From: a virus
DNA: 31,139 nt
Virus record (IMG/VR): IMGVR_UViG_3300042301_001808
Coordinates: 1 to 31,139 of that record
Strand: one strand, 5' to 3'
The position numbers were made by a program, and so were the translations under genes. Below are positions 1,241-31,139 of the stretch, piece by piece. Below the pieces are notes generated by a model. The model saw only the letters and a list, made by a program, of their open reading frames with translations, did no database searches and had not been told where the DNA came from. Each line of letters begins with the position of its first letter. The stretch's first letter is position 1.

Positions 1241-2845
1241 TTAGATAGTATTTAAACCAGCAATATATACTTTACCATAGTAGTCAGGACGGATCATCTT
1301 CTTAGCGTAACGAGTCATTAAACCTTTTCTTGGAGTGAAGGTATTAGGATCGTAAAGAAGTGGAGTCATGATTAATGGAACATATGGAGCAAATACGGCA
1401 CCACACTCTAAGAATTGAGCACCTTTGTAACCCATTAAGATTACGTTCTCAGTCATGTAAGGGTTTTTGTAAACCTTGTAACGACTATTTAAAGAACCAA
1501 CCTTTTGGATACCGAAGTTGAATTCAGATTTTTCACCATCACCATCAGAAGCAAATCCAGGGATTGATTCTAAGATAGTAGCTACAGAAGGAGAAGTTAC
1601 TAAGAAATTAGCACCACCTCTTAAAGTTAACTGATGAATTGTGTTTGATACTTTTTGTAATTTAGTACCTAAAGTTTGGAACCAACCACCTTGAGTGTTA
1701 AGGAAACCTAAATCTGCAGTAGTAACACCTGAAGCACCTACAGCTTGGTTGTTAATTGCTGACCAATATTCAGTTGTATAAGCGTTTTGGATTAACATAT
1801 CTAAGATCTCTAAATCAATCTCCATAGAGATGTATTGAGATAAGATACCAGTTAATTCAGCTTCAGCATCAACACTATGGTAAGCGTTAAGATCCTGAGC
1901 GAATTCTGGAGTCCATTGTGCTTTTAACTTACGAGTCTTAGCAACGATAGCTTCAGATTTTAACTGTACGTTAATTTCTGGGATAGCGATTGTAGTTGAA
2001 CTTTGTGCGTTTGGATAACCAGCACCTGATGCATCTTCGAAATCACCACGAGCAGCTGGAGTAGGTTGGATGTCATAGTACAATTGTACTGTTTGAGCAC
2101 CACCAGTTGTAGCAGCAACTAAAGAACCAGTTACAACGAAAGAAGCTGTGTTGTTAGATACAGTTGTAAATTGTTGTAAAATGTTTGCAACAGTGATAGA
2201 ACCTGAAGTAAATACGAATGAACGAACAGCGTTCAAATCAGCAGTTGCAGGTAATGGAACTAAGACAGTCTTATATTGATCAAAAGAAGCACTATAGTTA
2301 CTATCTAAGTTAAATGTAGCCCAACTAGTAGAACCAGTTAGAGAAGCAATTGAAGATGAGAATTGGTTGATTGAGTAACCAAATTTACCAGCACCGTAAA
2401 GTGATTGAGAGGTAATGTCAGTTACGTTTGTAGTTGCATTAGCACCATATAAAGATCCACCTGCAGTAAATGGTTTAACACCAGTACCGTATTTGAAATC
2501 AAGATAGAATACAAGACCTGAAGGTAAGTTCATTGGTTGTACACTAACGAATTCTTTAGCAGCGATTTCACCGAATACACGACGAACTAATGGTAAAGCT
2601 ACACCAGCCCAGTTTTCACTGTTGTATCCACCACCAGTCATGCTGTTGGTTCCACCAGTTACACTAGATTCAGTCATTAATTGTTTTGCTTGGTTTTCCA
2701 ATAGCATAGCCATTGTGTTTTTGTCTGTAGTAGATTTGATACCTTCTAAAAGGCCAGATTTTGCCCACTTTCCAGACAATCTTTTAGCATCTTCCATTAC
2801 TACTTTGTATTGGTTAGAGCTTTCTAATAATTGTTGTACGTTCAT
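1241..2845 (-). CDS. 23: Major capsid protein, T4 gp23-like
   Basis: The 534-residue product is close to T4 gp23 in length (521). Conserved stretches are visible: WAGVALPLVRRVFGEI and FVSVQPMNLPSGLVFYLDFK near residues 79-120, and a C-terminal region with TPRKGLMTRYAKKM. The N-terminal 59 residues look like a removable propeptide. LMTE at 56-59 is followed by SSVTGG, matching the place where T4 gp23 is cut by gp21 (FLTE before AEIGG). A Thr/Ser/Ala-rich region around residues 130-270 varies most between such proteins and probably forms the surface insertion. It follows the scaffold gene by 35 bases and is closed by a strong terminator, as expected for the most highly made virion protein. Confidence 0.95.
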   Translation of the reverse strand: MNVQQLLESSNQYKVVMEDAKRLSGKWAKSGLLEGIKSTTDKNTMAMLLENQAKQLMTESSVTGGTNSMTGGGYNSENWAGVALPLVRRVFGEIAAKEFVSVQPMNLPSGLVFYLDFKYGTGVKPFTAGGSLYGANATTNVTDITSQSLYGAGKFGYSINQFSSSIASLTGSTSWATFNLDSNYSASFDQYKTVLVPLPATADLNAVRSFVFTSGSITVANILQQFTTVSNNTASFVVTGSLVAATTGGAQTVQLYYDIQPTPAARGDFEDASGAGYPNAQSSTTIAIPEINVQLKSEAIVAKTRKLKAQWTPEFAQDLNAYHSVDAEAELTGILSQYISMEIDLEILDMLIQNAYTTEYWSAINNQAVGASGVTTADLGFLNTQGGWFQTLGTKLQKVSNTIHQLTLRGGANFLVTSPSVATILESIPGFASDGDGEKSEFNFGIQKVGSLNSRYKVYKNPYMTENVILMGYKGAQFLECGAVFAPYVPLIMTPLLYDPNTFTPRKGLMTRYAKKMIRPDYYGKVYIAGLNTI

Positions 2846-4382: not shown

Positions 4383-5000
4383 TTAACACAATGGACAAAC
4401 GCCAGTTGCATTACATATAATTTCAGTTATTAAACTATTTATTCTACTATAATCCTTAGATGGTTTATATTGTTTACCTTCAGCTAATGACATATACGCC
4501 TGTGGTGTACTAGGTACTGATACCAAATCCCAACATAATAATTCAAAATCATCTTGTACTTCAACTGTTTCACCTAGTTGTTTAACACTACCCATACCAC
4601 GTGATGATATACCAAGTGGAATATTAGATAATATTAATGCTTTAGCAATGTTGCCTGAAGGTGTTGGTAATAACTGTAATTTACCCATTAAATCGTTTCC
4701 TTCCCACCATACTTCTGTAATAACGTGAGATGTATTTGATAGGTTAACAACAGATGCTTCAGGGTGATCTAATTCACCTAGAGCAGTACGTGTTTTTACT
4801 GGTCCTTCCATATATTTTTGAACTTCTCTTTCAAGAATTTCACGAGGGTATACACGACCATTACCATTCTTTTGTTCAGCTTCTTGTAGTTTACCTACAA
4901 GAGTAACAAGAGATTTACCCTCGTTTAACTGTTTGTTTTCAACAATAGTTAAATTAGCTAATTGAGGGAGTGTATAATCTATTAATAATGTCTTATTCAT
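4383..5000 (-). CDS. 21: Prohead maturation protease, T4 gp21-like
   Basis: The 205-residue protein has the hallmarks of the T4 gp21 serine protease: the GELDHPE motif with candidate catalytic His79, and GISSRGMGSV with the candidate nucleophile Ser132 or Ser133. In T4 this enzyme acts inside the prohead, cutting scaffold, capsid and internal proteins after [L/I]-x-E and then destroying itself. Here QLNE at residues 24-27, followed by Gly, could be an auto-processing site. It lies one base downstream of the preceding head gene. Its presence gives meaning to the many [L/I/V]-x-E tags elsewhere in the window. Confidence 0.92.
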   Translation of the reverse strand: MNKTLLIDYTLPQLANLTIVENKQLNEGKSLVTLVGKLQEAEQKNGNGRVYPREILEREVQKYMEGPVKTRTALGELDHPEASVVNLSNTSHVITEVWWEGNDLMGKLQLLPTPSGNIAKALILSNIPLGISSRGMGSVKQLGETVEVQDDFELLCWDLVSVPSTPQAYMSLAEGKQYKPSKDYSRINSLITEIICNATGVCPLC

Positions 5001-6711: not shown

Positions 6712-6840
6712 TTATCTACCTTGTCCTCTATAAGCCTTTGGACGTGGATTGTGTTTATTATATGATTTCTTAGCTGCGCCTTGTTTACGTTTACCAAAGT
6801 TAACCTTATTATTGGAAGCGGATGATTTTGCTTTTGCCAT
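6712..6840 (-). CDS. Small basic head-cassette protein (42 residues)
   Basis: A short frame from an ATG at 6838-6840 to TAA at 6712-6714 encodes a 42-residue protein starting MAKAKSSASNNKVNFGKRKQ. It is extremely basic (many Lys and Arg) and rich in Asn, Gln and Ser, ending RPKAYRGQGR. Its start overlaps the stop of the preceding gene by one base (TAATG), which implies coupled translation, and it is 12 bases from the next gene. T4 has small core genes 67 and 68 at this place, but those products are larger, so I only claim a positional parallel. A nucleic-acid-binding or scaffold-binding role fits the charge. Confidence 0.75.
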   Translation of the reverse strand: MAKAKSSASNNKVNFGKRKQGAAKKSYNKHNPRPKAYRGQGR

Positions 6841-8285
6841 TATTGGTTAAGATTTTTAATTTTATTGTTAAGTTGGTTTACCATTTCTGATATATTTGCT
6901 ACATTTTTCTGTGTTGCTTTCCAATATCTAATACCTTCTTCACCTTCACTCAATTCTTGTTTCATACGAGAAGTGTATTCTACTATACGATCAATTTCAG
7001 TTAATTTACGTTTTACTTCACGAATAGCTTTATGTAGTTGTTCAGATTTAGTTCTGAATTTAACATCTTTTTTAAATTTACCGTATGATACTTCATTAAG
7101 TAATTCTTCTTTAATGATATCACTCAATGATTCGTATAATTTAGTGTTAATACCACCGTGTACTCTTACTCTATCATATACATCAGCATCTTTATCACTT
7201 TTCTTTTTTTGCTTTACAGCAAATGGATTTTTTACATACCATATATCATCACTAACAGCAGGCATTAATTTTTCAACATTGATTGCGTTGCTGCTCGCTA
7301 ACTTATTTGCTATTCTGGAAGCTAATTGTATTGAATTACCAGTATCTAATGAAAATTGTCTAGGCGTATTTTCTTTATCTTTATTTTTATATAACCAAAT
7401 TAAGAATTCTAGTTCATTTTCTAAACCTGCTGCTTTACTAGGCTCAGCTTTAATAGCTTTTAAAAACTGTATTCCTTTAGGAGCAATACTTACAATATCG
7501 TTAGAAACAGAAGAACTAACTGGATCTGGTGTTCTAGATAAAATTAAATCTAAAGCAATAAAACCATTGCTGGTTATTTTAGCACCTTGAGCTGCTTTTT
7601 TAATTTCTCCTCTAGTACCAGCTGGCATTTTTTCTTTTAAATATCTAGTTAAAGCAGGTAGTAATATTTCTTTATCAAAAGAACTTCTACCCCTTTCAAT
7701 AGCGTCTAATGCAGTTTTAACTAAAGGATCAATCATTAATATTGTTTCCCCTTTACTATTGGTAAATATTTTAAAATATATTTTAGATGTTTCCCCTAAT
7801 TTAATAGGTTCAAGTAAAAATGAAGGAAATTCATATTCAAGTGGAATTCGAAAAGATTTAGATCCTGCTTTTTTCTTGTTAGGATCATAGAATGAAAATT
7901 CTGCTTCGTTCATATCAGTATTGTTTTGGTAATAATTATCACCCTTAATACCACCTCCTGTATAACCGCTAGCTGCTGTATAGCCACTAGCTGCTCCATA
8001 AGATGATGCTTGATCATAATTACTTTCTTTGTATATATTGTATTTTTTCTTTTTAGCTGAGGGCCATATAGATTTATAATCTCTCACTTTGGAATCTCCA
8101 GGCATTTGTGTTTCGCCTTTTGTTACTTTCCAACCTTCATCTTCAGCTGCAGCCACTGCTGCATTTTTCTTTTGGCCTTTCTTAGCAAAGGCAAATGGAG
8201 TAGAATAACCACCAACACCAGATGTAGATGATTCTTCATCTAACAGTTCTTGTACTAGTTTTTTGATGTATTCTTTAAATTCCAT
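6840..8285 (-). CDS. Head-region protein with a capsid-targeting-like N-terminus, function unknown
   Basis: The 481-residue product starts MEFKEYIKKLVQELLDEESS, an amphipathic helix ending LLDE, which matches the prohead-protease consensus. Residues 25-75 are Gly/Ala/Lys-rich (PFAFAKKGQKKNAAVAAAEDEGWKV spread over about 31-56), and a short repeat AASGYT occurs twice near 97-110. The middle (130-380) looks globular with no catalytic motif I recognise. The C-terminal 80 residues are a Lys/Glu-rich coiled coil. It lies between portal and protease and is coupled to the small basic gene through TAATG. It is likely to be a prohead core protein or an internal head protein. Confidence 0.7.
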   Translation of the reverse strand: MEFKEYIKKLVQELLDEESSTSGVGGYSTPFAFAKKGQKKNAAVAAAEDEGWKVTKGETQMPGDSKVRDYKSIWPSAKKKKYNIYKESNYDQASSYGAASGYTAASGYTGGGIKGDNYYQNNTDMNEAEFSFYDPNKKKAGSKSFRIPLEYEFPSFLLEPIKLGETSKIYFKIFTNSKGETILMIDPLVKTALDAIERGRSSFDKEILLPALTRYLKEKMPAGTRGEIKKAAQGAKITSNGFIALDLILSRTPDPVSSSVSNDIVSIAPKGIQFLKAIKAEPSKAAGLENELEFLIWLYKNKDKENTPRQFSLDTGNSIQLASRIANKLASSNAINVEKLMPAVSDDIWYVKNPFAVKQKKKSDKDADVYDRVRVHGGINTKLYESLSDIIKEELLNEVSYGKFKKDVKFRTKSEQLHKAIREVKRKLTEIDRIVEYTSRMKQELSEGEEGIRYWKATQKNVANISEMVNQLNNKIKNLNQ

Positions 8286-13444: not shown

Positions 13445-14437
13445 TTATTTTATAATTCCTGCACGGTATTTTAATTGTTCCATAAACCATTCATCAATTG
13501 GCTCTTCTGGTTTTTCTTTAGCCTGATTTGCTTTGGCTTGACGTTTTTGCAAATATTCTGATCCTGCTATTAGATCATTTATTCTTTGCTCTAATGAGGC
13601 TTTTAAATCTATCAAACGTTGTAATTCAGATGATGGTTTATCTTTGAAATCACCAGCTACATTTTTTGATCTTCTTGCTTTAAATATATCACTTTTTACT
13701 TTATTTAAACGTGCTTCTAAATCAGATACTTTCATGAAGTTTTGATAATCTTCATCAGGTATTCCAAGATCAGATGTTTTGCTTACTATTGGTTCTTCTT
13801 CACCGGATTGTTTCATTTTAGCAAACATTGCGTCTACTTCTTCATCACTCATATCACCTACGATAAAGTCAAATTCATCGCTTGTTTCTTCTTCTTCATC
13901 ATCCTCTTCATCATCAGCTACATCGCTCGGTACATCTCCGAAACCACCAATATCTCTTTTCTTTATAGTTACGGGTTTAATAGGAGTAAAATCATCAGCG
14001 GCTGCTCGTGGTGCTTTTTGTTCCTCAGCAGCTACAATTACACCTCTAGCTACCAATTCCATAAAATCTGAGTTTACTGGCTGTTGTTTGTTATATCCTA
14101 ACTCATATGCTAAGTCTATTTTAGAAATAGGCTCATCAATCTCTTTCATTTTACTTACGATACGATTTTTCTTACCAGTAAATTTTCCGGGATCAACATC
14201 AGGAGCTAATTCATAACGTAATGCTACGTTAGCTAATTCATCTAATTTATCTTCAGATACTACTGATGTTCTACCTGATGATAGGTCTGATTTTTTAGCG
14301 TTTAATGCCGTTATTTGTTTATTAATAGAATTTAATTCTGCATCTTTAGCTGCTTTCTCTTGGGGAGTTATTTCAGCTTCGTTCACTACTTCATTTATAG
14401 CTTTACGTATAATTTGTCTTAATTCAGATTTTTTCAT
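13445..14437 (-). CDS. Acidic protein with capsid-targeting-like N-terminus, function unknown
   Basis: I start it at the ATG at 14435-14437; the longer frame reading adds an unlikely hydrophobic leader and covers the ATATTTATA element. The 330-residue product begins MKKSELRQIIRKAINEVVNE, an amphipathic helix with two overlapping [I/V]-N-E sites. The centre has a Glu/Asp run (about 175-190) and the helix-rich C-terminal third is a probable coiled coil. It ends QLKYRAGIIK, a loose match to the RWKMLAGITKF end of the gp22-like scaffold. Together these features suggest a prohead core or internal protein. No enzymatic motif is visible. Confidence 0.7.
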   Translation of the reverse strand: MKKSELRQIIRKAINEVVNEAEITPQEKAAKDAELNSINKQITALNAKKSDLSSGRTSVVSEDKLDELANVALRYELAPDVDPGKFTGKKNRIVSKMKEIDEPISKIDLAYELGYNKQQPVNSDFMELVARGVIVAAEEQKAPRAAADDFTPIKPVTIKKRDIGGFGDVPSDVADDEEDDEEEETSDEFDFIVGDMSDEEVDAMFAKMKQSGEEEPIVSKTSDLGIPDEDYQNFMKVSDLEARLNKVKSDIFKARRSKNVAGDFKDKPSSELQRLIDLKASLEQRINDLIAGSEYLQKRQAKANQAKEKPEEPIDEWFMEQLKYRAGIIK

Positions 14438-14457
14438 GTGTTGTTGATAGTTGTGAA

Positions 14458-17213: not shown

Positions 17214-17663
17214 TTACACTTCATCATCCATTTCGAAATCAGCTAAGATATCATCAACACTCTTTGTAGCTTTATTAGTTCCACCCATAGAGCTTCCAGC
17301 TGTGTACCCAGCTCTACTAGCAAATCCAAGTTCTTCTACTGTGTTAAAGAATTTATTAACATCCGGTTGTTTTTTACCTAATAAATTAGCATAGTCTATC
17401 TTTTGTACTCTTTTACCATCTTTTTTAGCATTGTATAAGAATTTTAAAATTTCAAGATGATTAATTCCGATACCCATAGGTAAGGAACCACCAGCTTTTA
17501 AACTTCTTAATAATGATTCACCTTCAGGAGTGATAGTGTAGGCACCACCCGTACCTGCTGTACGAGCCATTTCGTCCATTTCTTCAGCTTCGTTGAACTG
17601 AGATTCGTTAATCATACCAGCTAATAGCTGTAATCTTCTTGTTTCGATTATTTGTTTTTTCAT
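17214..17663 (-). CDS. Tagged small protein, possibly winged-helix
   Basis: A 149-residue protein starting MKKQIIETRRLQLLAGMINE, which contains the LAGI-type tag and ends in INE, a prohead-protease consensus site. The core (about 70-115: LEILKFLYNAKKDGKRV, then NKFFNTVEELGFASR) looks like a small helical DNA-binding domain of winged-helix type, but this is a weak reading. The end is acidic (DDILADFEMDDEV). The gene is followed by a strong terminator and lies 14 bases after another gene with the same kind of tag. A packaged, DNA-associated internal protein is my best guess. Confidence 0.65.
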   Translation of the reverse strand: MKKQIIETRRLQLLAGMINESQFNEAEEMDEMARTAGTGGAYTITPEGESLLRSLKAGGSLPMGIGINHLEILKFLYNAKKDGKRVQKIDYANLLGKKQPDVNKFFNTVEELGFASRAGYTAGSSMGGTNKATKSVDDILADFEMDDEV

Positions 17664-17677
17664 TTTGGGTTTTTATT

Positions 17678-18112
17678 TTATTGTACTTTGTAAACGTTGT
17701 TTCCTATTTTTAAATTATTAATTGTGCTAACATTAATCATTCTATATCCTGAATCACTACCGCTTTTTGCTTTAGGATCCCATACTGGTATTAATCCTTT
17801 AGCTTCTGGGTTGTATGGTAGTTCTCCACCTTTAAGATAAGCTTTAACTCCTAAACGAGCATTCATTACACGTGTTGTACCATCTTTTTTAGTAAATGTT
17901 ACAGTGAAGAATTTACCTTTAGTATTTTTAATTAATTCCTTAGCTTTATCTTTTGATATAGTACCAGATGGTTCTTCAGGAGTACTAGCGTCGCTGTCAG
18001 GCTTTACTTCATCCGGTATTTCAGAATCAGGCACGGCTTGTTCATCCTCGTCTGCTTCTTTTAAAATACCAGCTAGTTTTTGCCAACGTTTAGCCTCTTT
18101 TATTAAATACAT
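17678..18112 (-). CDS. Tagged small protein with SH3-like barrel domain
   Basis: The 144-residue product begins MYLIKEAKRWQKLAGILKEA: the RWxxLAGI tag followed by LKE before Ala, matching the protease consensus. An acidic linker (20-50) leads to a beta-rich domain: KGKFFTVTFTKKDGTTRVMN, then ARLGVKAYLKGG and a YRMINV strand near the end. I know this domain from phage proteins, and it resembles those described as SH3-like barrels; its function is unknown. It starts the short unit ended by the terminator at 17157-17192. Confidence 0.7.
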   Translation of the reverse strand: MYLIKEAKRWQKLAGILKEADEDEQAVPDSEIPDEVKPDSDASTPEEPSGTISKDKAKELIKNTKGKFFTVTFTKKDGTTRVMNARLGVKAYLKGGELPYNPEAKGLIPVWDPKAKSGSDSGYRMINVSTINNLKIGNNVYKVQ

Positions 18113-19171: not shown

Positions 19172-19807
19172 TTATTTAAAATCCTCCATGTAAAACAATA
19201 TGTATGTTGAAAATTCAGAACCATATCCTAAAGTAGCATCTTCAGCACTAGGATCATCAACAGTAAAATCATCAATGTTTTCTTTTAGAAAATCTTGGTT
19301 TATTTTTTCAAATTCTTCTCTATCTTCTTCATCATCAATACCTTCAAAAGCGTATTCTCTTAATAAAGCGATATATTTTTTACTAAGTATAAATTTAGAA
19401 TCAATACATTTAGTAACATAACATATATTACCGGGTCCTGAGAAATAGTCCATCATTCTAACATTTTCTACATCATCAGCCCAAAATGTTATTTTACGTT
19501 GTGGTTTATAATTGTAAAGAGAAGTAGTAATATATGTTTTGTTTCCATACCAATCAGATAAATTGGTTTGTTTTATATTATTATTATCAATACAATCTTT
19601 AATAAAATCATATGTTTTATCACTAATTGGGGTACCTCTGTATAGATGTCGTCCTACAGGAGGTTGTAATAGGGGATTAGATGATTTATATTTTTCTATT
19701 TTTTTAATAAAATTATATACTCTATTGTAGTCTATATCTGTTGTCCAGTCATGTCCTAGTAATGGAGCTAAAGTATTTGTTATAGTTTTAATAGAAATTT
19801 TTTCCAT
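19172..19807 (-). CDS. ADP-ribosyltransferase-like protein (R-S-E type)
   Basis: The 211-residue product shows the three landmarks of arginine-type mono-ADP-ribosyltransferases in order: LYRGTPIS with Arg57, YITTSLYNY with the STS-like Thr-Thr-Ser at 94-96, and GYGSEFSTYILF with Glu198 in the last strand. T4 Alt, ModA and ModB use this fold to modify host RNA polymerase, ribosomal and other proteins. The target here is unknown. The glutamate motif shows only one of the usual two acidic residues (SEF, not ExE), so activity or residue specificity is uncertain. Unlike its neighbours it has no clear capsid tag (MEKISIKTITNTLA). It lies 10 bases after the gene at 19818. Confidence 0.65.
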   Translation of the reverse strand: MEKISIKTITNTLAPLLGHDWTTDIDYNRVYNFIKKIEKYKSSNPLLQPPVGRHLYRGTPISDKTYDFIKDCIDNNNIKQTNLSDWYGNKTYITTSLYNYKPQRKITFWADDVENVRMMDYFSGPGNICYVTKCIDSKFILSKKYIALLREYAFEGIDDEEDREEFEKINQDFLKENIDDFTVDDPSAEDATLGYGSEFSTYILFYMEDFK

Positions 19808-19817
19808 TGTATTTTAT

Positions 19818-20381
19818 TTAAGCTTCAGCAGGTGGTGTTTCTTCTTCTTCAGGTGCGGCTGGTGCTTCAGCTCCAGCTGGTGTTTCTGTAGGGGGCGCAG
19901 CAGGTGCTCCACCTGGTATTTCAGCTGGTGGGGCTCCTGTAACAGCATTAAATGCTTCAGCTCCAGCATCAGGTGTATTAGTTTCAATCTCTGATGTTTT
20001 TTCATCAATTGAATAATTTAATTCTAATAAATCTGATATACCCTGTGATGCTCTTTCTAGTTCGCCTAAATTTTGAATATTATATCTTTTACCTGCTACT
20101 TTAGCGGTATATGTACCTTTTCCATTATATATAATAGTGAAATCTTCATTATTAATTAATTTAACAGAAAATGTAGTTGGTTTAGGGGCAACTATTTCAA
20201 TATCAGAAATGAATCGACCAAATGCCGGAGACATTAGGTCGATCATTACTTCTTTTAATTTAGGAAAACGATATACTAAATACATTGCTTGTGTAGCACG
20301 TTTTTCTTTTTCTTCTTGTTCTTGAAGAGCCTTACGTACTGCTACTTTAATGTATTTTTCTAATAATAGTTTTTTATTCAT
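19818..20381 (-). CDS. Tagged virion-associated protein with Pro/Ala tail
   Basis: The 187-residue protein begins MNKKLLLEKYIKVAVRKALQ and continues EQEEKE, so the helical tag ends at LQE. Residues 30-125 form a mixed domain (VYRFPKLKEVMIDLMSPAFG, then TFSVKLINNEDFTIIYNGKG, YNIQNLGELERASQ). The last 55 residues are a Pro/Ala/Glu-rich flexible tail. I know the domain from T4-type marine phages but not its function. It is the last of six successive genes whose products start with such a tag (22828 to 19818). Confidence 0.7.
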   Translation of the reverse strand: MNKKLLLEKYIKVAVRKALQEQEEKEKRATQAMYLVYRFPKLKEVMIDLMSPAFGRFISDIEIVAPKPTTFSVKLINNEDFTIIYNGKGTYTAKVAGKRYNIQNLGELERASQGISDLLELNYSIDEKTSEIETNTPDAGAEAFNAVTGAPPAEIPGGAPAAPPTETPAGAEAPAAPEEEETPPAEA

Positions 20382-20383
20382 TG

Positions 20384-21517
20384 TTATTTTTTAGCTTGAC
20401 CTTTCCACATAGCAGCAGCTGCTATTTTTTTTCCTTTTTCACCACCACCCGCAGCAGCAGCTACTTTTTCAAATCCTTTACCTTTTTTACCTATATCTTT
20501 ACCAGCACGAGCTTTTGTAGCTACAGCTGACTTTTCCTTTTTAGTCATACCAGCAGATGGCTTTTTCTTCTTAGCTTTAGCTTCTCTTATGAAGTCACTC
20601 CAGCTTAAACCTCTAGAAGATAAAGATCCACTATTCCAATCTTGTTCATCGTAGTAAGTAGTAATCCAATCTGCTATATCGCTTTCAAGTTTTGCATCAT
20701 TATTTTCATAGTCAGTGTATTTAAATTCACCTAATATAGCATCAATTATATCTTTAGCTTCTCTAGGAGTTACATCACTCTCACCAACATTAAGATTATC
20801 ATTTACATACTTTTCAACTTTATCTTCAAAGTCATATTGACATTCTTCACATCCAAGATTTTCTCTCATTTGTGGTTTTAATGTTTTAACAGATATAATC
20901 TTATTTCCATCTGGGAATTTTACATATATCTTTGCTCCTTCTTTAGCTTGAGTTACAGGAGATACTGGATCTACTTTAGTTATGGTTCCAGTGCCATATT
21001 TTTTATGGTGAAATTTTTGATCTACTCTATAATCTGTTTTAGGAGTGTAATCGTATTCTTCTCCGTAATCTTTAGATTTAGCGCTGTGTTGTCTTCCTTT
21101 ATCTCCTCTTACTTCTTCTAATTCTTCTTTAGGTTTTTTATCTTTTTTAGTAGGTTTAACAGGAGCCTTTTCAATTAAACCAACCATTTCTTTAATCTTT
21201 TCAGTTTCAGAAGCAACTTTACCTTCAACTTCAGAAATTTGGTTATCTAACATTTCAGATAATTTGGCGTGTGCTACTTTAATTTTTTCTAACTCATTAA
21301 CAAACTTTTGCATATGAGCATATTCAGCTACAAATGATGATGGGTTTTCTCCATTTTCGTTAATAGCATATTGGCCTAAAGATTCTTTCATTTTTCTTAA
21401 GCCATTTAATTCTTTTTTAAGGTGTACTAATTTACCACCACTTTTAGGTAAACCACCTTCTTTTTTAACTTCTAGTATTACTTGGCGAATAACTTCGCGT
21501 ACTTCTGATAAATTCAT
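20384..21517 (-). CDS. Tagged basic protein with Tudor-like domain
   Basis: The 377-residue product begins MNLSEVREVIRQVILEVKKE with ILE at the tag end. Residues 30-125 are a coiled coil. A segment near 163-207 (FHHKKYGTGTITKVDP, then KIYVKFPDGNKIISVKTLKP) resembles the Tudor-like domain at the C-terminus of UvrD/PcrA helicases, which binds RNA polymerase or nucleic acid. The C-terminal 55 residues are Lys/Ala/Gly-rich (GKDIGKKGKGFEKVAAAAGG), like a histone tail. A protein packed with DNA in the head, or a host RNA polymerase binder, would both fit; neither is shown. It ends three bases before the next tagged gene. Confidence 0.68.
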   Translation of the reverse strand: MNLSEVREVIRQVILEVKKEGGLPKSGGKLVHLKKELNGLRKMKESLGQYAINENGENPSSFVAEYAHMQKFVNELEKIKVAHAKLSEMLDNQISEVEGKVASETEKIKEMVGLIEKAPVKPTKKDKKPKEELEEVRGDKGRQHSAKSKDYGEEYDYTPKTDYRVDQKFHHKKYGTGTITKVDPVSPVTQAKEGAKIYVKFPDGNKIISVKTLKPQMRENLGCEECQYDFEDKVEKYVNDNLNVGESDVTPREAKDIIDAILGEFKYTDYENNDAKLESDIADWITTYYDEQDWNSGSLSSRGLSWSDFIREAKAKKKKPSAGMTKKEKSAVATKARAGKDIGKKGKGFEKVAAAAGGGEKGKKIAAAAMWKGQAKK

Positions 21518-21733: not shown

Positions 21734-22171
21734 TTACCATTTTTTACAAGACCAATAATTAGCTTTCCATCTTGGTCCTGGGTTATCACAATTATGTCTT
21801 TTACGATATGCACTGCGGCGTTTTGGGTTGTTTACTTTGATGTTCATTCTTTTACCCTTAGCTGATTTTCCACCAAAACCAAAGTTAACTTTTACAACCT
21901 TACCCTTATTATTCTTAACATATACCTTAAACTTTTTAACATCACCTTGCATTGGTTTACCTAGTGTAACTTTACGGCCGTGATACTCAGCTTCAAGTAA
22001 ACAAGGGCAATCAGCTTCCGCTAATACTTGTTTATAATCACGCATAAATTGAATGAATTCCTTAAGATCTTGTTCATTTTCAACATCATATTCATCAACT
22101 TCATCTTCATTAGTATAAAGTGTTTCTATAATAGCTTTTTTAACTAACTGTCTTAATTCTGTTATTTTCAT
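21734..22171 (-). CDS. Tagged basic protein with C-terminal His/Cys motif
   Basis: The 145-residue protein starts MKITELRQLVKKAIIETLYT, with IIE closing the tag. After an acidic linker comes a basic domain: YHGRKVTLGKPMQGDVKKFK, VKVNFGFGGKSAKGKRMNIK, then RKRHNCDNPGPRWKA and YWSCKKW at the end. I recognise this C-terminal pattern from many marine-phage proteins of unknown function; the His and two Cys could bind metal. The strong positive charge fits contact with packaged DNA. Confidence 0.72.
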   Translation of the reverse strand: MKITELRQLVKKAIIETLYTNEDEVDEYDVENEQDLKEFIQFMRDYKQVLAEADCPCLLEAEYHGRKVTLGKPMQGDVKKFKVYVKNNKGKVVKVNFGFGGKSAKGKRMNIKVNNPKRRSAYRKRHNCDNPGPRWKANYWSCKKW

Positions 22172-22174
22172 AAT

Positions 22175-22591
22175 TTATTTGTTAAACTTTACTTTTGCTT
22201 TATCAGTATTAGGTACAAATTGTTTACCTTTTTTAGATCCAGCTACTTTTTTACGAGATGTTGCAGCGCGTTCTGCTTTAGTTAAGCTATTTGCTTTAGC
22301 ACGAGGTAAACAACGAGTTGTTGCTTTACCTTTTTTCATTGTACCACATGGACCAGCAATATTACCTTGTGTATCTATACGAACCCAATCTTCTTTTTTA
22401 AACCAATCACGAAGTGATTCATCTAAATCATCTTCTTTCATTAATCCTTTACATACTTTAGTAGCACGACCAGAAAGATAAGCTGATGGTTTTTCACCCG
22501 CTGCTCTACGACGATTATAATAAGCTTTACCTTTCTTACACAGTTTTTTTTCAGCTATTATATCTTGTAATATTTCGGTTAGTTTAATCAT
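22175..22591 (-). CDS. Tagged basic protein, DUF5872-like C-terminus
   Basis: The 138-residue product starts MIKLTEILQDIIAE, a short tag ending IAE. It continues with two segments I know from phage genomes: CKKGKAYYNRRRAAGEKPSA followed by YLSGRATKVCKG, and SLRDWFKKEDWVRIDTQG followed by GPCGTMKKGKATTRCLPRAK. The second resembles the small domain DUF5872. Four Cys are spread over both parts. Net charge is strongly positive. It lies three bases before the start of the next tagged gene. Confidence 0.72.
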   Translation of the reverse strand: MIKLTEILQDIIAEKKLCKKGKAYYNRRRAAGEKPSAYLSGRATKVCKGLMKEDDLDESLRDWFKKEDWVRIDTQGNIAGPCGTMKKGKATTRCLPRAKANSLTKAERAATSRKKVAGSKKGKQFVPNTDKAKVKFNK

Positions 22592-23731: not shown

Positions 23732-25930
23732 CTATTTTTGTTTTGTATGTTGATAACCTGCTTCTATATTTTCAAAGTCATCTTTATAATTTTCTAATAC
23801 CATTACGTCAGCCGGGATCGGGTTAGTAATACTAAATGTTTCGTCTTCTAACTGTGAGCTTAATTTATCCATAAACTCTGGTTTAAAGAATAATTCAGCA
23901 TTTTTAGCTTTGGCTCTCATTATTACCGGTACTCCTCCTTTTGTTTCCGCTGTAGACGCAGCAAATGTAGCAGCATTATTATAATTAATACTCCATGATT
24001 GTACTTTACGTCTAGAAGAATACATTTGATTCATTATTATAATACCTTGATCATATGTTTTAGTGTATGGTTCTGTTTTAGCTCCATACATTAGTTCGTT
24101 TAGTTTTTCTTTAGGTATTGATGTTCCTCTATAGATGTAAGTTTCACCATTTAGTTTAGGATCTGCTATTTCAGGATAGTCTTTTTTTAATATTTTAAGT
24201 ATAGGAATTAAATGATCTAAATTAATAGTACCATAAATATCTGCTGTAGAGCTTGCATATTTTTTTAATAGTTTAAACAATGCATGTTCAGCTAGCGTAT
24301 CTTCTTCTTTTTCATTGTCATACCATAATATTGATACTCCCGATTCTTTATCTCCAAATAAATAATTTCCATACACTCCTTCTCTTAATAATACTTCGTA
24401 TATGTCTTTATTTTGTTTACCAAAATCTCTTAACAATATTCCTGCTTGAGCGTTTGCTTCATTTTCAATTTCAGAACCAGTTTCACCACTTGTATTATCT
24501 ATCTTACCATCTTCATCTTGCTTACGATGAACTAATTCATGAGCTAATGTTCTTAAAATATCAGCCATATTTCTATTAGCACAATAGATCCATATTTTAT
24601 TATTATTTGGATCAAAATAACCAAAGCTACTCATATCTTTAGCTTTGTTATTATCGTATGATAGTGTTAAGTTACGTGGAGGTTTTTGTATTCCCAAATT
24701 CTTAATAGCGTATTTAACAAACTCACCAATAGTAGCCGTTTGGCTTTCGTTTAGTTTATTATTGTGTTTTAGATTTTCTTTTAGTAGATTTAATTTGCCT
24801 ATTTCACTTCTATATCTATCTGCTATTTTTTTAACACCTTCATAGTATTTTCTAGCACAACTAATGTTGTCTACTCTATATGATGTTATTTTAAAATCAC
24901 TTAATATTTCTTCTTTACTTCTTTTATCTTCTGTTGTATCAATATGAAGAAGTATTAACTTTGTAAATGAGTCATATCCTTTATTAATTTCTTCTGGGTT
25001 GATTAATTGTTGCTGTCCAATTATCCTTTGATGATTATGGTATTCTTTGTTTTTTATTACTTCTGCCTTAAACTGATATACTTGTATTTTCCCACTTAAT
25101 ATATCATCAATAATTTTACTACTTTTTTCTGCATTATAGAATTCATAAATATCACTACAGTTTTTCTCAACCGTTGTAGTATACCTATTTAATATACTAT
25201 TATATTTATCTCTAACGTCATATTCCGCTTTTTCTTTTGAGTCTGCATCTACAGGTTTAATTATATTTTTTAGAAATTTTAATTTTGGTTGTTCAGGATA
25301 AGCTTTTACTAATTCATCCCAATTCTCAAAATATTCTTCTCCTCCTTTATTATTAGCTTTTGTTACTGAGTATGACATTTCACGGTCCTCATAGATGAAT
25401 ATTACAAGTAAATGATAGTCGTCTATAAATTTTCCATTTTCATCCTTTTTAGAAGATTTAGTATCGTCAAATATAAAATAAGGTGTTCCTTTTTCCTCAT
25501 ATCTATAACTTGTATACATTTCTTCTCCTTCTCCTCCTCGAGCAGATATACAAAATGAATATCCATTACCATATTTGATACAGGCTTTACGGTCTTTACC
25601 AACATATACTCTTAATTCATTTTGATTATAAACCAAATCAGCATTTTCTGGTTCACCATCATTTATTTTACCTGCTTTAATACGTTTTGGTTGATTAGAA
25701 TTAATAATATTTTCTAATTCTTTCCAACTATATTTAGTAATATCTTTATTAGATATTTTAGGACTACTTTTAATTTGATCAAAACGATTGATATATGCTT
25801 TGATAACGTCTGTTTCTAAACTAGGTTCTTCTTGCTTAAATTTGTCTACTAATGTATTAACTACTTTATTAGAGTATTCATCAAGATCTAATACTTCTTT
25901 CCACCAACCAACAGTAAAATTATTGTTCAT
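23732..25930 (-). CDS. Zinc metalloprotease / ADP-ribosyltransferase fusion
   Basis: From the ATG at 25928-25930 the product has 732 residues. A longer frame start adds a hydrophobic leader read from the AT-rich gap and is unlikely. Part 1 (1-390) is a helical region plus a domain with KACIKYGNGYSFCISARG (Cys117, Cys127). Part 2 (about 396-516) is a zincin-like domain: TLAHELVHRKQ, with HExxH at His464-His468 and a likely third ligand among Glu487-Glu491 (SEIENEANAQ). Part 3 (about 530-732) is an ADP-ribosyltransferase: YIYRGTS with Arg601, QSWSINYNNAATFA with Ser645/Ser647, and QLEDETF giving Glu695-Asp-Glu697, the full R-S-ExE set. LNE (ends 395) and LRE (ends 517) flank the zincin part and could be prohead-protease sites. 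Substrates are unknown. Confidence 0.78.
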   Translation of the reverse strand: MNNNFTVGWWKEVLDLDEYSNKVVNTLVDKFKQEEPSLETDVIKAYINRFDQIKSSPKISNKDITKYSWKELENIINSNQPKRIKAGKINDGEPENADLVYNQNELRVYVGKDRKACIKYGNGYSFCISARGGEGEEMYTSYRYEEKGTPYFIFDDTKSSKKDENGKFIDDYHLLVIFIYEDREMSYSVTKANNKGGEEYFENWDELVKAYPEQPKLKFLKNIIKPVDADSKEKAEYDVRDKYNSILNRYTTTVEKNCSDIYEFYNAEKSSKIIDDILSGKIQVYQFKAEVIKNKEYHNHQRIIGQQQLINPEEINKGYDSFTKLILLHIDTTEDKRSKEEILSDFKITSYRVDNISCARKYYEGVKKIADRYRSEIGKLNLLKENLKHNNKLNESQTATIGEFVKYAIKNLGIQKPPRNLTLSYDNNKAKDMSSFGYFDPNNNKIWIYCANRNMADILRTLAHELVHRKQDEDGKIDNTSGETGSEIENEANAQAGILLRDFGKQNKDIYEVLLREGVYGNYLFGDKESGVSILWYDNEKEEDTLAEHALFKLLKKYASSTADIYGTINLDHLIPILKILKKDYPEIADPKLNGETYIYRGTSIPKEKLNELMYGAKTEPYTKTYDQGIIIMNQMYSSRRKVQSWSINYNNAATFAASTAETKGGVPVIMRAKAKNAELFFKPEFMDKLSSQLEDETFSITNPIPADVMVLENYKDDFENIEAGYQHTKQK

Positions 25931-28214: not shown

Positions 28215-28862
28215 TTAGAAATCAAATAATTTTAAATTTCCTTGTTTATCATAACCTAAATTTTCAAATGAAAAATCAAATCCTAGTCCTATTTTTGAAT
28301 TTACTAAGTTTATAAAATCTATCCATTTTTTATAAACATTGTATAAATGACTAGACTCTTTCTTAAAAACAGACATTATGAATTTTACATCTTGATCATT
28401 ACCCTCCATAATACCCCATCTAGTTATATTTATAAAATCAATAATACCAGATTTCTGTATTATTGGCCAGAATGTTTTATCCTTATCTTCCAACCTATCA
28501 CCATACCATGTGTCTCCAACAAAAAATGATCTATTATTATAATATTCAGGATTATCTTCAAAAATTTTATTCATTTCTTCATTTTCTCTTACTAATCTCT
28601 TAGCATCTACCTTTTCAATAACTAAATATCCTTTTTCTTCATTATATTTGTATACTTTAACAAATATATCTGGGTTTTCTATCATTATAGCCATACGATC
28701 ATCCCATGATTTCTCGGCATTACCCCAAGTTGGATATCTATGACTCGTAATTACCTTGTCGGGCTGAGTTTCAAAATCATAAACTGTAGACTCAGTTCCT
28801 GATCCCAGCTCTTGTTTTTTTCTAATACTTATTTCGTTTAATAAATCAATTAATTTAATCAT
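28215..28862 (-). CDS. Tagged protein-kinase-like protein
   Basis: The 215-residue product starts MIKLIDLLNEISIRKKQ: a tag ending LNE. Then comes a kinase-like N-lobe: LGSGTESTVYDF (19-30) as glycine loop and Lys36 in PDKVI as the likely lysine. Near the end, GFDFSFENLGYDKQGNLKLFDF has Asp196 and Asn201 of the catalytic loop, and FDF in place of DFG. The protein stops right there, so it lacks the usual activation segment and most of the C-lobe. This resembles small phage kinase-like proteins of the Rio/ABC1 style. Targets are unknown. The tag suggests it is packed in the head and delivered to the new host cell. Confidence 0.65.
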   Translation of the reverse strand: MIKLIDLLNEISIRKKQELGSGTESTVYDFETQPDKVITSHRYPTWGNAEKSWDDRMAIMIENPDIFVKVYKYNEEKGYLVIEKVDAKRLVRENEEMNKIFEDNPEYYNNRSFFVGDTWYGDRLEDKDKTFWPIIQKSGIIDFINITRWGIMEGNDQDVKFIMSVFKKESSHLYNVYKKWIDFINLVNSKIGLGFDFSFENLGYDKQGNLKLFDF

Positions 28863-28916: not shown

Positions 28917-29333
28917 TTAAACATTTTCAATATTAATGAAATATTTAGGATCTAAGTAACCTTCTCTATTAGACAATATTCTTTCTTCAAAAAATTCCGT
29001 AAATTTAGAAATAACAGGTGTTCCTTCTTCTTCAAACTCATCTTTATTCCATACGTTTTCTACATTAATGGGTTCAATTTTATATCTTTCAGATATTTTA
29101 TTTCCATCTAATGTAATCCTAACATTTAAATCTTTATAATCTAGATATTTAAATAAACCTTTTCCACTTTTATCTCTAGTAGCAGCAATATAAAATTGAT
29201 TTGGATAAAGTCCTGAATTGTCTGGTTCAAATTTTATACCTTTTTCTTTTATGCTATTAAGAAAGGAACTATTTGTAAAATGGTATAGTATCCCTACTTG
29301 TTTAGCTTCTATTAAATCAATTAATTTAATCAT
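28917..29333 (-). CDS. Tagged ADP-ribosyltransferase-like protein (small, H-Y-E type)
   Basis: The 138-residue protein begins MIKLIDLIEAKQVGILYHFT. The tag MIKLIDLIE is followed by Ala, a good prohead-protease site, and the domain then starts with YHFTNSSFLNSIKEKGIKFE. Landmarks resembling the DarT/KptA branch of the ADP-ribosyltransferase fold are His18, NQFYIAATRD (Tyr48, Arg53) and a final FEERIL (Glu116 or Glu117) before YLDPKYFINI. DarT modifies DNA and KptA modifies RNA; the substrate here cannot be told from sequence. Homology is by pattern only. The start is coupled to the upstream structural gene by TAATG (29331-29335). Confidence 0.6.
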   Translation of the reverse strand: MIKLIDLIEAKQVGILYHFTNSSFLNSIKEKGIKFEPDNSGLYPNQFYIAATRDKSGKGLFKYLDYKDLNVRITLDGNKISERYKIEPINVENVWNKDEFEEEGTPVISKFTEFFEERILSNREGYLDPKYFINIENV

Positions 29334-29661: not shown

Positions 29662-30633
29662 TTAACATGATCCGTCTAATCCTGTTATATAAACAGGGTT
29701 AGTATTATTTACAGCTACGTTAGTAAATGTATAGGTTCCGTTACCAGTAAATGAAGTACAAGGGTACGAGCTTCCATTACTATCTGTTAATAATATACGT
29801 TCAGTACTAACATAACCACTTAAACTTAAAACAATAGTACAGAAAGGTCCACTTTCACTAGTAGTAAATACATTTAAAGCACCACTTGAGAATGGAAAAT
29901 CGTTTCCAGCATAATTAGTAACTGACGTTCCGTTTACCGTAGCTCCCGTAACTGTCATACTTAATGCTCCCGACCAATCAAAGTATAAGTAATTGTTTGG
30001 GTCTAGTGTCGGCGTAGGCGTTGGTGTTGGTGTCGGTGTTGGCGTCGGCGTCGGTGTCGGTGTAGGTGTAGGTGTTGGCGTTTCTGTTGGCGTAGGCGTA
30101 GGCGTTAAAGTAGGCGTAGGCGTAGGTGTTGGCGTTTCTGTTGGCGTAGGCGTAGGCGTAGGCGTAGGCGTAGGCGTAGGCGTAGGCGTAGACGTAGGCG
30201 TTGGCGTCGGTGTTGGCGTCGGTGTTGGCGTTAAAGTAGGTGTTGGCGTAGGCGTTTCTGTCGGCGTCGGTGTAGGCGTAGGCGTAGGCGTTTCTGTTGG
30301 TGTTGGCGTTGGTGTTAACGTTGGTGTCGGTGTTGGCGTCGGTGTTAGTGTCGGTGTAGGTGTTAACGTTGGCGTCGGTGTAGGCGTTAACGTTGGCGTC
30401 GGTGTAGGCGTTGGCGTCGGTACTCCTGTTATAGGTAAAATAAGAGAATTAGTACAACTTCCTATTGATGTTATTGTTACTTGAGTAGCAGTATCATCCA
30501 CTACTACTCCTAAACTAGATAATAATTCAGATACAGTTGCCGTGTTGGGGTTTACAACACCAACATCTGCTGTTAATGTAAAGGGTCCTAAATCTACCCC
30601 CAGTCCTGAATTAAGTGTTAATAATACATTCAT
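29662..30633 (-). CDS. Fibre-like protein with long Pro-Thr repeat linker
   Basis: The 323-residue protein has three parts. Residues 1-70 are a small beta-rich domain ([20 protein letters not shown], with [18 protein letters not shown] at its end). Residues about 72-209 are a (Pro-Thr)n repeat interrupted by Leu, Glu and one Ser, which will be extended and flexible. Residues 210-323 are a second beta domain ([20 protein letters not shown], several Thr/Ser-rich strands, two Cys near the end). Such proteins in aquatic phages are taken to be tail-fibre or head-decoration adhesins with a stalk. There is no signal peptide. The exact role is inferred. Confidence 0.65.
30007..30420. repeat. Hexanucleotide repeat encoding (Pro-Thr)n
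   Basis: About 414 bases of CCN-ACN units on the coding (minus) strand, seen as GGNGTN on the plus strand. Third codon positions vary through all four bases along the array. TTA (Leu), GAA (Glu) and TCT-type (Ser) codons interrupt it at intervals. Confidence 0.95.
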
Positions 30634-30654
30634 TTATTTTACTTATATTGTATT

Positions 30655-31139
30655 TTAATTGTGTCTAACATCTATAGTTATAGATGTTTTACTAGTTAAA
30701 TCAACAGATAAACTTAATGTAAAGCTTGTACCTTGTGGAGTAAGGTAATTAGTTGATGTTGTAGATCCACCTGGTGACGTTGTAGCATCAAAGTTGTATA
30801 TTAGTGATGGGTTAGCATTATTCATTGATACAGATATACTTTGTACCCCACTCTGTAATACACCTGATGAATTATACATGTTGCCTGGTGTTATTGATAT
30901 TGTTCCACTACCAATACTTCCTACTATTACCTCAGTTACATCTCCAGTAGTACATGAATTTGTTAAATTTATGCTAAGAGAAGATGGTGTAGGCGTTGGG
31001 GTTGGTGTAGGCGTTGGCGTTATAGTTGGCGTTGGCGTAGGTGTTAGCGTCGGCGTCGGAGTTGGCGTCGGTGTAGGTGTAGGTGTTGGCGTCGGCGTTG
31101 GTGTTAATGTCGGCGTAGGAGTTGGTGTCAACGTTGGCG
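30655..31139 (-). CDS. Second Pro-Thr-repeat fibre-like protein, 5' end outside the window
   Basis: The frame is open to the right edge and no ATG is present; the only in-window start-type codon near the edge is TTG at 31129-31131, which lies inside the repeat and is read as Leu. The visible part has a (Pro-Thr)n stretch with Leu and Ile interruptions, then a 105-residue beta-rich domain: SSLSINLTNSCTTGDVTEVI, VGSIGSGTISITPGN and a last strand SKTSITIDVRHN. This C-terminal domain does not obviously match that of the neighbour, so the two share the stalk rather than the tip. They are 21 bases apart and form one unit. Confidence 0.65.
   Translation of the reverse strand, partial: PTLTPTPTPTLTPTPTPTPTPTPTPTPTPTLTPTPTPTITPTPTPTPTPTPSSLSINLTNSCTTGDVTEVIVGSIGSGTISITPGNMYNSSGVLQSGVQSISVSMNNANPSLIYNFDATTSPGGSTTSTNYLTPQGTSFTLSLSVDLTSKTSITIDVRHN
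30985..31139. repeat. Hexanucleotide repeat encoding (Pro-Thr)n, second array, cut by the edge
   Basis: Same GGNGTN plus-strand unit as 30007-30420, separated from it by 564 bases of unique sequence. It continues to the window edge. Confidence 0.95.

Follow-up and report, generated by a model that had tools for sequence, protein, structure and literature searches.

A T4-like phage protein combining zincin and ADP-ribosyltransferase domains, with gp21-type motifs at its domain borders

A multidomain chain and the gp21 protease of the same phage

The DNA examined here is a stretch of 31,139 nucleotides (the window) that makes up positions 1 to 31,139 of the IMG/VR virus record IMGVR_UViG_3300042301_001808. 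It is a piece of a T4-like phage genome, with genes for the gp23 capsid protein, the gp21 protease, the portal and the terminase to one side. On the minus strand, an open reading frame (ORF) at 23732-25930, with its ATG at 25930 and its stop codon at 23732-23734, encodes a protein of 732 residues; genes for an exonuclease, a primase and a GIY-YIG endonuclease lie immediately upstream. An earlier note, made from the sequence alone, had described this protein as one chain with a Cys-containing N-terminal domain, an HELVH zincin and an R-S-ExE ADP-ribosyltransferase (ART), whose parts gp21 could release. The diagnostic residues are all present and are kept in relatives. The chain runs from a leader through a two-Cys domain and a zincin to the ART, so that at least two unrelated effector-type domains (two-Cys domain, zincin fold, ART fold) share one phage polypeptide.

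The N-terminal leader (MNNNFTVGWWKEVLDLDE, 25877..25930, minus strand as are all features below), a proposed capsid-targeting sequence, is disordered in the structure model and ends at LDE-Y19 (codons 25877-25885). The first cassette (residues 19-395, 24746..25876) comprises a 'KACI...YSFCI' two-Cys domain (19-230), an alpha/beta segment (231-389) and a border linker; C117 and C127 are kept among relatives of this N-terminal domain, for which no Pfam or PHROG family was matched. The border site LNE395-S396 (24746..24754) precedes the zincin metallopeptidase cassette (residues 396-510, 24401..24745), in which the active-site residues are intact: HELVH occupies residues 464-468, and E489/E491 downstream are invariant among relatives. 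The zincin/ART border (24380..24403) holds IYE512-VL and LRE517-G518 and is followed by the ART cassette (residues 518-732, 23735..24379) with YIYR601GT, S645-W-S647 and E695-x-E697. An L/I-x-E motif is thus found at all three borders. LNE before Ser396 and LRE before Gly518 lie exactly where the earlier note had placed them; it had missed LDE-Y19 at the border of leader and first cassette, LKE385 ten residues ahead of LNE395 (24776..24784, an accessory site that is M-x-E in most relatives of the same class), and IYE512 just ahead of LRE517.

Searches of the full-length protein against Pfam, PHROG, NCBIfam, PADLOC and PDB sequences gave no usable domain call. The full-length model has a mean predicted local distance difference test (pLDDT) score of 78.8, with low confidence at residues 1-14 (below 50), 381-390 (averaging 58) and 510-541 (largely below 60), that is, at or beside all three borders. 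Residues 392-510 match zincins (best VIA rows: selecase, Z 8.1; lethal-factor type, 7.6; IrrE, 7.4), and at least 585 relatives of this cassette were found in viral contigs. Because a Foldseek comparison of the whole model with the PDB gave no E value below 0.001, the ART was modelled alone (pLDDT 70). In this case all 50 listed VIA-align rows read as ART-superfamily chains (KptA/Tpt1, 6.5; Arr-2, 6.0; Vis, 6.0), with modest scores (Z 4.0-6.5, all below 8), and Foldseek by itself again returned no E value below 0.001. The cassette matched no Pfam family and no ART among PDB sequences, and its predicted identity draws on fold and residues rather than on a curated-family sequence match; all 13 aligned sequences keep the R, S-x-S and E-x-E elements, down to an identity of 27% in the most distant one. 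Two further window ORFs, at 19172-19807 and 28917-29333, are possibly ART-like (HLYRGTP...YITTSLY; ILYHFTNSSFLNSIKEKGI), without a Pfam match; the second has the leader MIKLIDLIE.

The proposed cutter, the prohead protease gp21 (Peptidase_S77), is encoded at 4383..5000 (Pfam, E=4.9e-31; PHROG head maturation protease, E=1.5e-52) and has [LI]xE motifs of its own near both ends. The gp23-type major capsid protein (1241..2845) has a propeptide with LLE motifs and LMTE-SSV at the expected maturation site. In this clade, LLE motifs recur in the gp23 propeptides, and the expected site reads L-[MVI]-[TV]-E or LLDE; by resemblance to T4 gp23, this suggests that the P3 preference of this gp21 may be slightly broader than L/I. 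Most contigs compared are incomplete genomes; of the 19 records with a zincin and a length of 100 kb or more, 17 have an S77/gp21 gene. The other two (L048 and L056) also lack gp23, and so they are no clean gp21-negative control. In another contig (L038; 84,923 bases), the S77 protease appears at 70842-72509 as two pieces within a 653-residue open frame, perhaps through an insertion or a fusion, and an in-frame TAA was reported within the capsid-protein match of L229 (gp23 of the L009 contig).

Placement of the motifs in relatives

The 732-residue chain holds ten [LI]xE motifs, so their mere presence is ordinary, and E181, E263 and E548 are among those not kept in the nearest relative. The earlier note had argued that placement rather than presence is the point, and comparison of relatives bears this out: the placement is non-random. 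We assembled 113 non-redundant zincin ORFs from 220 loci, 65 of which have another domain upstream. In 59 of these 65 fusions an [LI]xE motif lies within the 25 residues preceding the zincin, whereas random windows of the same proteins gave 18.7% (standard deviation (SD) 5.0, maximum 34.4% in 500 draws) and shuffling of the border segments with their composition kept gave an expected 26.2 of 65 (SD 3.6, maximum 39 in 2000). At this border no residue pair is in greater excess than L-x-E, and when the fusions are grouped by upstream domain the site occurs in 9 of 11 unrelated classes. P3 is mostly L or I, P1 is E and P2 varies widely; as the underlying table pre-selects [LIVMF]-x-E, what it tells us is that L and I are preferred among those residues at P3 and that P2 is free.

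Other cassettes show the same arrangement. A site precedes all 27 distinct starts of the two-Cys cassette (21/21 N-terminal and 6/6 internal), 31 of 31 N-terminal and 7 of 8 internal starts of NMN adenylyltransferase (NMNAT) cassettes, and 7 of 7 N-terminal and 9 of 12 internal starts of ParB-like cassettes. For the ART, [LI]xE immediately precedes each of the 12 distinct starts. At the C-terminal border of the zincin, counts were redone without IYE since standalone zincins naturally end in the same IYE/IFE; a site was then found in 30 of 58 cases, against a background of 17%. Zincins with nothing after them end exactly at I[YF]E or EIYQ (e.g. in L034, L036, L075, L010 and L013), which looks as if genes had been split or joined at a cleavage boundary. 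The border sites are thus conserved in homologues, as the earlier note had required of its own proposal: strongly at the starts of the first cassette and of the zincin, more weakly at the zincin/ART border. The C-terminal site LRE-G518 is less certain than the N-terminal ones.

Leaders, shuffled cassettes and neighbouring genes

The leader of the window protein is short, ends in [L/I]-x-E, and occupies the same place in all homologous starts. Such leaders are interchangeable among cassettes. The window protein's own type (WW-type) also starts ParB-like and NMNAT cassettes and directly precedes the zincin inside 6 other proteins, and an LGxY leader is found at the start of NMNAT, ParB-like and first-cassette genes as well as inside 5 polyproteins. 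Standalone zincins start with MLTFKQYIAE, MKKFREYLKE, MNYKQFLRE or similar, with the site at the final E; these resemble the capsid-targeting sequence of T4 IPIII. Likewise, the cytidyltransferase of cyanophage S-SRM01 starts with MKNFHQFITE, also with the site at its final E.

Homologues of the first cassette occur both as stand-alone genes, each with a leader, and as parts of polyproteins of 1117-1358 residues. The cassettes shuffled among the chains of relatives include a Pol-beta-like nucleotidyltransferase (NTase), NMNAT, ParB-like, two-Cys, zincin, ART, HAD nucleotidase and ligase-like domains; for example, a protein of 1117 residues (L013) joins Pol-beta-like NTase, NMNAT, ParB-like, two-Cys and zincin cassettes through leader-type joints. 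Complete leaders are kept inside polyproteins, e.g. ETNLGRYLASLILE followed by AED. A protein of 1358 residues (L092, 1277-5350) has the two-Cys cassette twice, each with its own [LI]xE ahead. Relatives of the NMNAT cassette were also detected by tblastn in the Prevotella Lak megaphages (records MK250015-MK250029). No bacterial reservoir was seen: the 4 matches in bacterial assemblies are all contigs of metagenome-assembled genomes.

The nearest relative found, on an IMG/VR contig, is about 79% identical over its full length, with zincin and ART almost unchanged and the stretch around residues 240-380 diverged. Flavobacterium phage immuto (Immutovirus) has a syntenic gene, which makes a host in Bacteroidota likely. 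Its product (QQO92100, 907 residues), encoded behind a primase and an exonuclease like the window gene, unites NTase, NMNAT and zincin in one chain, with LAE before the NMNAT and LPE before the zincin; unlike the window protein, it has neither a two-Cys nor an ART cassette, and its annotation covers the NMNAT part only.

Several small window genes carry leaders of this kind: short, amphipathic-looking N-termini that end in [L/I]-x-E are seen at 6840-8285, 13445-14440, 17214-17663, 17678-18112, 19818-20381, 20384-21517, 21734-22171, 22175-22591, 28215-28862 and 28917-29333. Judged by these N-termini, they are possibly a large set of head cargoes. Elsewhere in the window, two ORFs at 29662-31131 contain long TPTP repeats. 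In a related contig (L001, 2389-4926, plus strand), an 845-residue ORF resembling a SusC/RagA-type TonB-dependent receptor lies between the exonuclease gene and the homologue of the 732-residue gene; it is not at the corresponding place in the window, and a related ORF of 838 residues is present in L171.

A putative capsid-targeted polyprotein

From these observations, we consider it likely that the 732-residue product is a capsid-targeted polyprotein cut by the phage's own gp21 during head maturation. Residues 1-18 would act as a T4-type capsid-targeting leader and bring the chain into the prohead core by co-assembly, where the gp21 serine protease would cut after Glu at [L/I]-x-E (E18, E385/E395 and E512/E517). 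Three cargoes would thereby be freed, namely the two-Cys domain, the zincin peptidase and the R-S-ExE mono-ADP-ribosyltransferase, which would be packed alongside the DNA and ejected upon infection; the ART may then modify host proteins in the manner of T4 Alt. Release of the parts by gp21, as the earlier note had proposed, is supported by the gp21 gene in the window, by the conserved border sites and by the poorly ordered borders in the model; packaging, cleavage, ejection and substrates are what we infer from them.

T4 gp21 cuts by an L/I-X-E rule, and T4 Alt is a packaged ART that is cut by gp21 at both ends (PMC9026906), which by analogy offers a precedent for an ART cargo of this kind; head-packaged ARTs are already known (PMC9503650). 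Like the window protein, T4 Alt and IPI-IPIII begin with a short leader whose last residues are [L/I]-x-E; theirs are head-packaged proteins, as we propose here. In T4, however, each gene encodes one cargo from which end peptides alone are removed, whereas the window protein would hold several cargoes per chain with sites at the joints. The giant phages SPN3US and phiKZ package and eject proteins that are cut by their own prohead proteases after Glu, as proposed here, although with a different P3 preference (A-X-E in the head ejection proteins of SPN3US; PMC10052503), and the known cuts take off propeptides, none being reported there between functional domains.

The domain combination, which the earlier note did not know from T4, is not new: Iyer et al. 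(2017, PMC5512222) describe zincin-ART fusions among the polyvalent proteins of phages and conjugative elements. Those proteins, which Iyer et al. liken to viral polyproteins, are also multidomain chains with a zincin-like peptidase and an ART and are proposed to be delivered with DNA (PMC5512222). The window protein reads as a polyvalent protein of this kind that is pre-cut by gp21 instead of by its own zincin. We found no description of prohead-protease sites between effector domains of polyvalent proteins in the open-access literature; within that literature such sites are the new element, whereas zincin-ART fusions, packaged ARTs and propeptide cuts are known.

Several points weigh against this interpretation. 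The gene adjoins primase and exonuclease genes rather than head genes. The LxE linkers are related by descent, so the 65 fusions are not independent cases. At the ART border, about half of the relatives have IYE only, which is also the natural end of the zincin, and the downstream class 'EDINVDVDKGD' has a C-border site in just 6 of 20 cases. Published prohead-protease cuts outside scaffold proteins nearly always take off terminal propeptides (in SPN3US, 13 of 14 are N-terminal and 1 is C-terminal; PMC10052503).

The main rival is self-cleavage by the embedded zincin, in which case the [LI]xE motifs would be its sites or irrelevant. Zincin-like peptidases are a hub domain of polyvalent proteins, where release is ascribed to the embedded peptidase and self-processing has been proposed (PMC5512222), and the intact active site would allow it. 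We nevertheless regard this as unlikely: the same borders stand ahead of genes without a zincin, among them first cassettes and NMNAT, the motif also ends the leaders of many small window proteins, and it is the motif of gp21, which the phage encodes. The gp21-type sites and capsid-targeting-like leaders at the borders suggest that the prohead protease acts in trans ahead of packaging. Slightly less probable still is that the motifs are relics, left behind when leader-tagged genes fused, and that the chain is packaged and functional uncut, as is the N4 virion RNA polymerase, which is packaged unprocessed despite its peptidase domain (PMC5512222). The entire leaders within polyproteins fit such a history; relics should decay, however, and here P3 and P1 are conserved in linkers that vary at P2 and elsewhere, and gp21 would encounter these sites in the prohead. 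It is improbable that the product is an early cytoplasmic protein, made after infection and never packaged, with unused sites: its neighbours, primase, exonuclease and GIY-YIG endonuclease with no adjacent head gene, would suit this, but the leader and its site are conserved and standalone homologues carry IPIII-like leaders. Chance, as the ten short motifs of a long protein rich in Glu and Leu might suggest, is very improbable and is rejected for the N-terminal borders because the observed counts lie far beyond the highest draws of both controls.

The preferred reading is thus that of a polyprotein processed by gp21: several enzymes for taking over the host, including a metallopeptidase and an ADP-ribosyltransferase, appear to be made by this T4-like virus as one chain. 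With somewhat less assurance, we favour the broader view that T4-like phages build such chains from leader-plus-cassette units in shuffled order, every joint being cut by the prohead protease before DNA packaging, to yield equal copies of the enzymes. If true, these chains, processed in trans, would be the phages' equivalent of the polyproteins of RNA viruses and would explain how several injected enzymes are packed in a fixed ratio. A leader together with [L/I]-x-E borders would then serve as a rule to find head-packaged effectors in uncultured T4-like phages, and it would become testable whether the zincins at the hub of polyvalent proteins act as processing enzymes or are carried as cargo.
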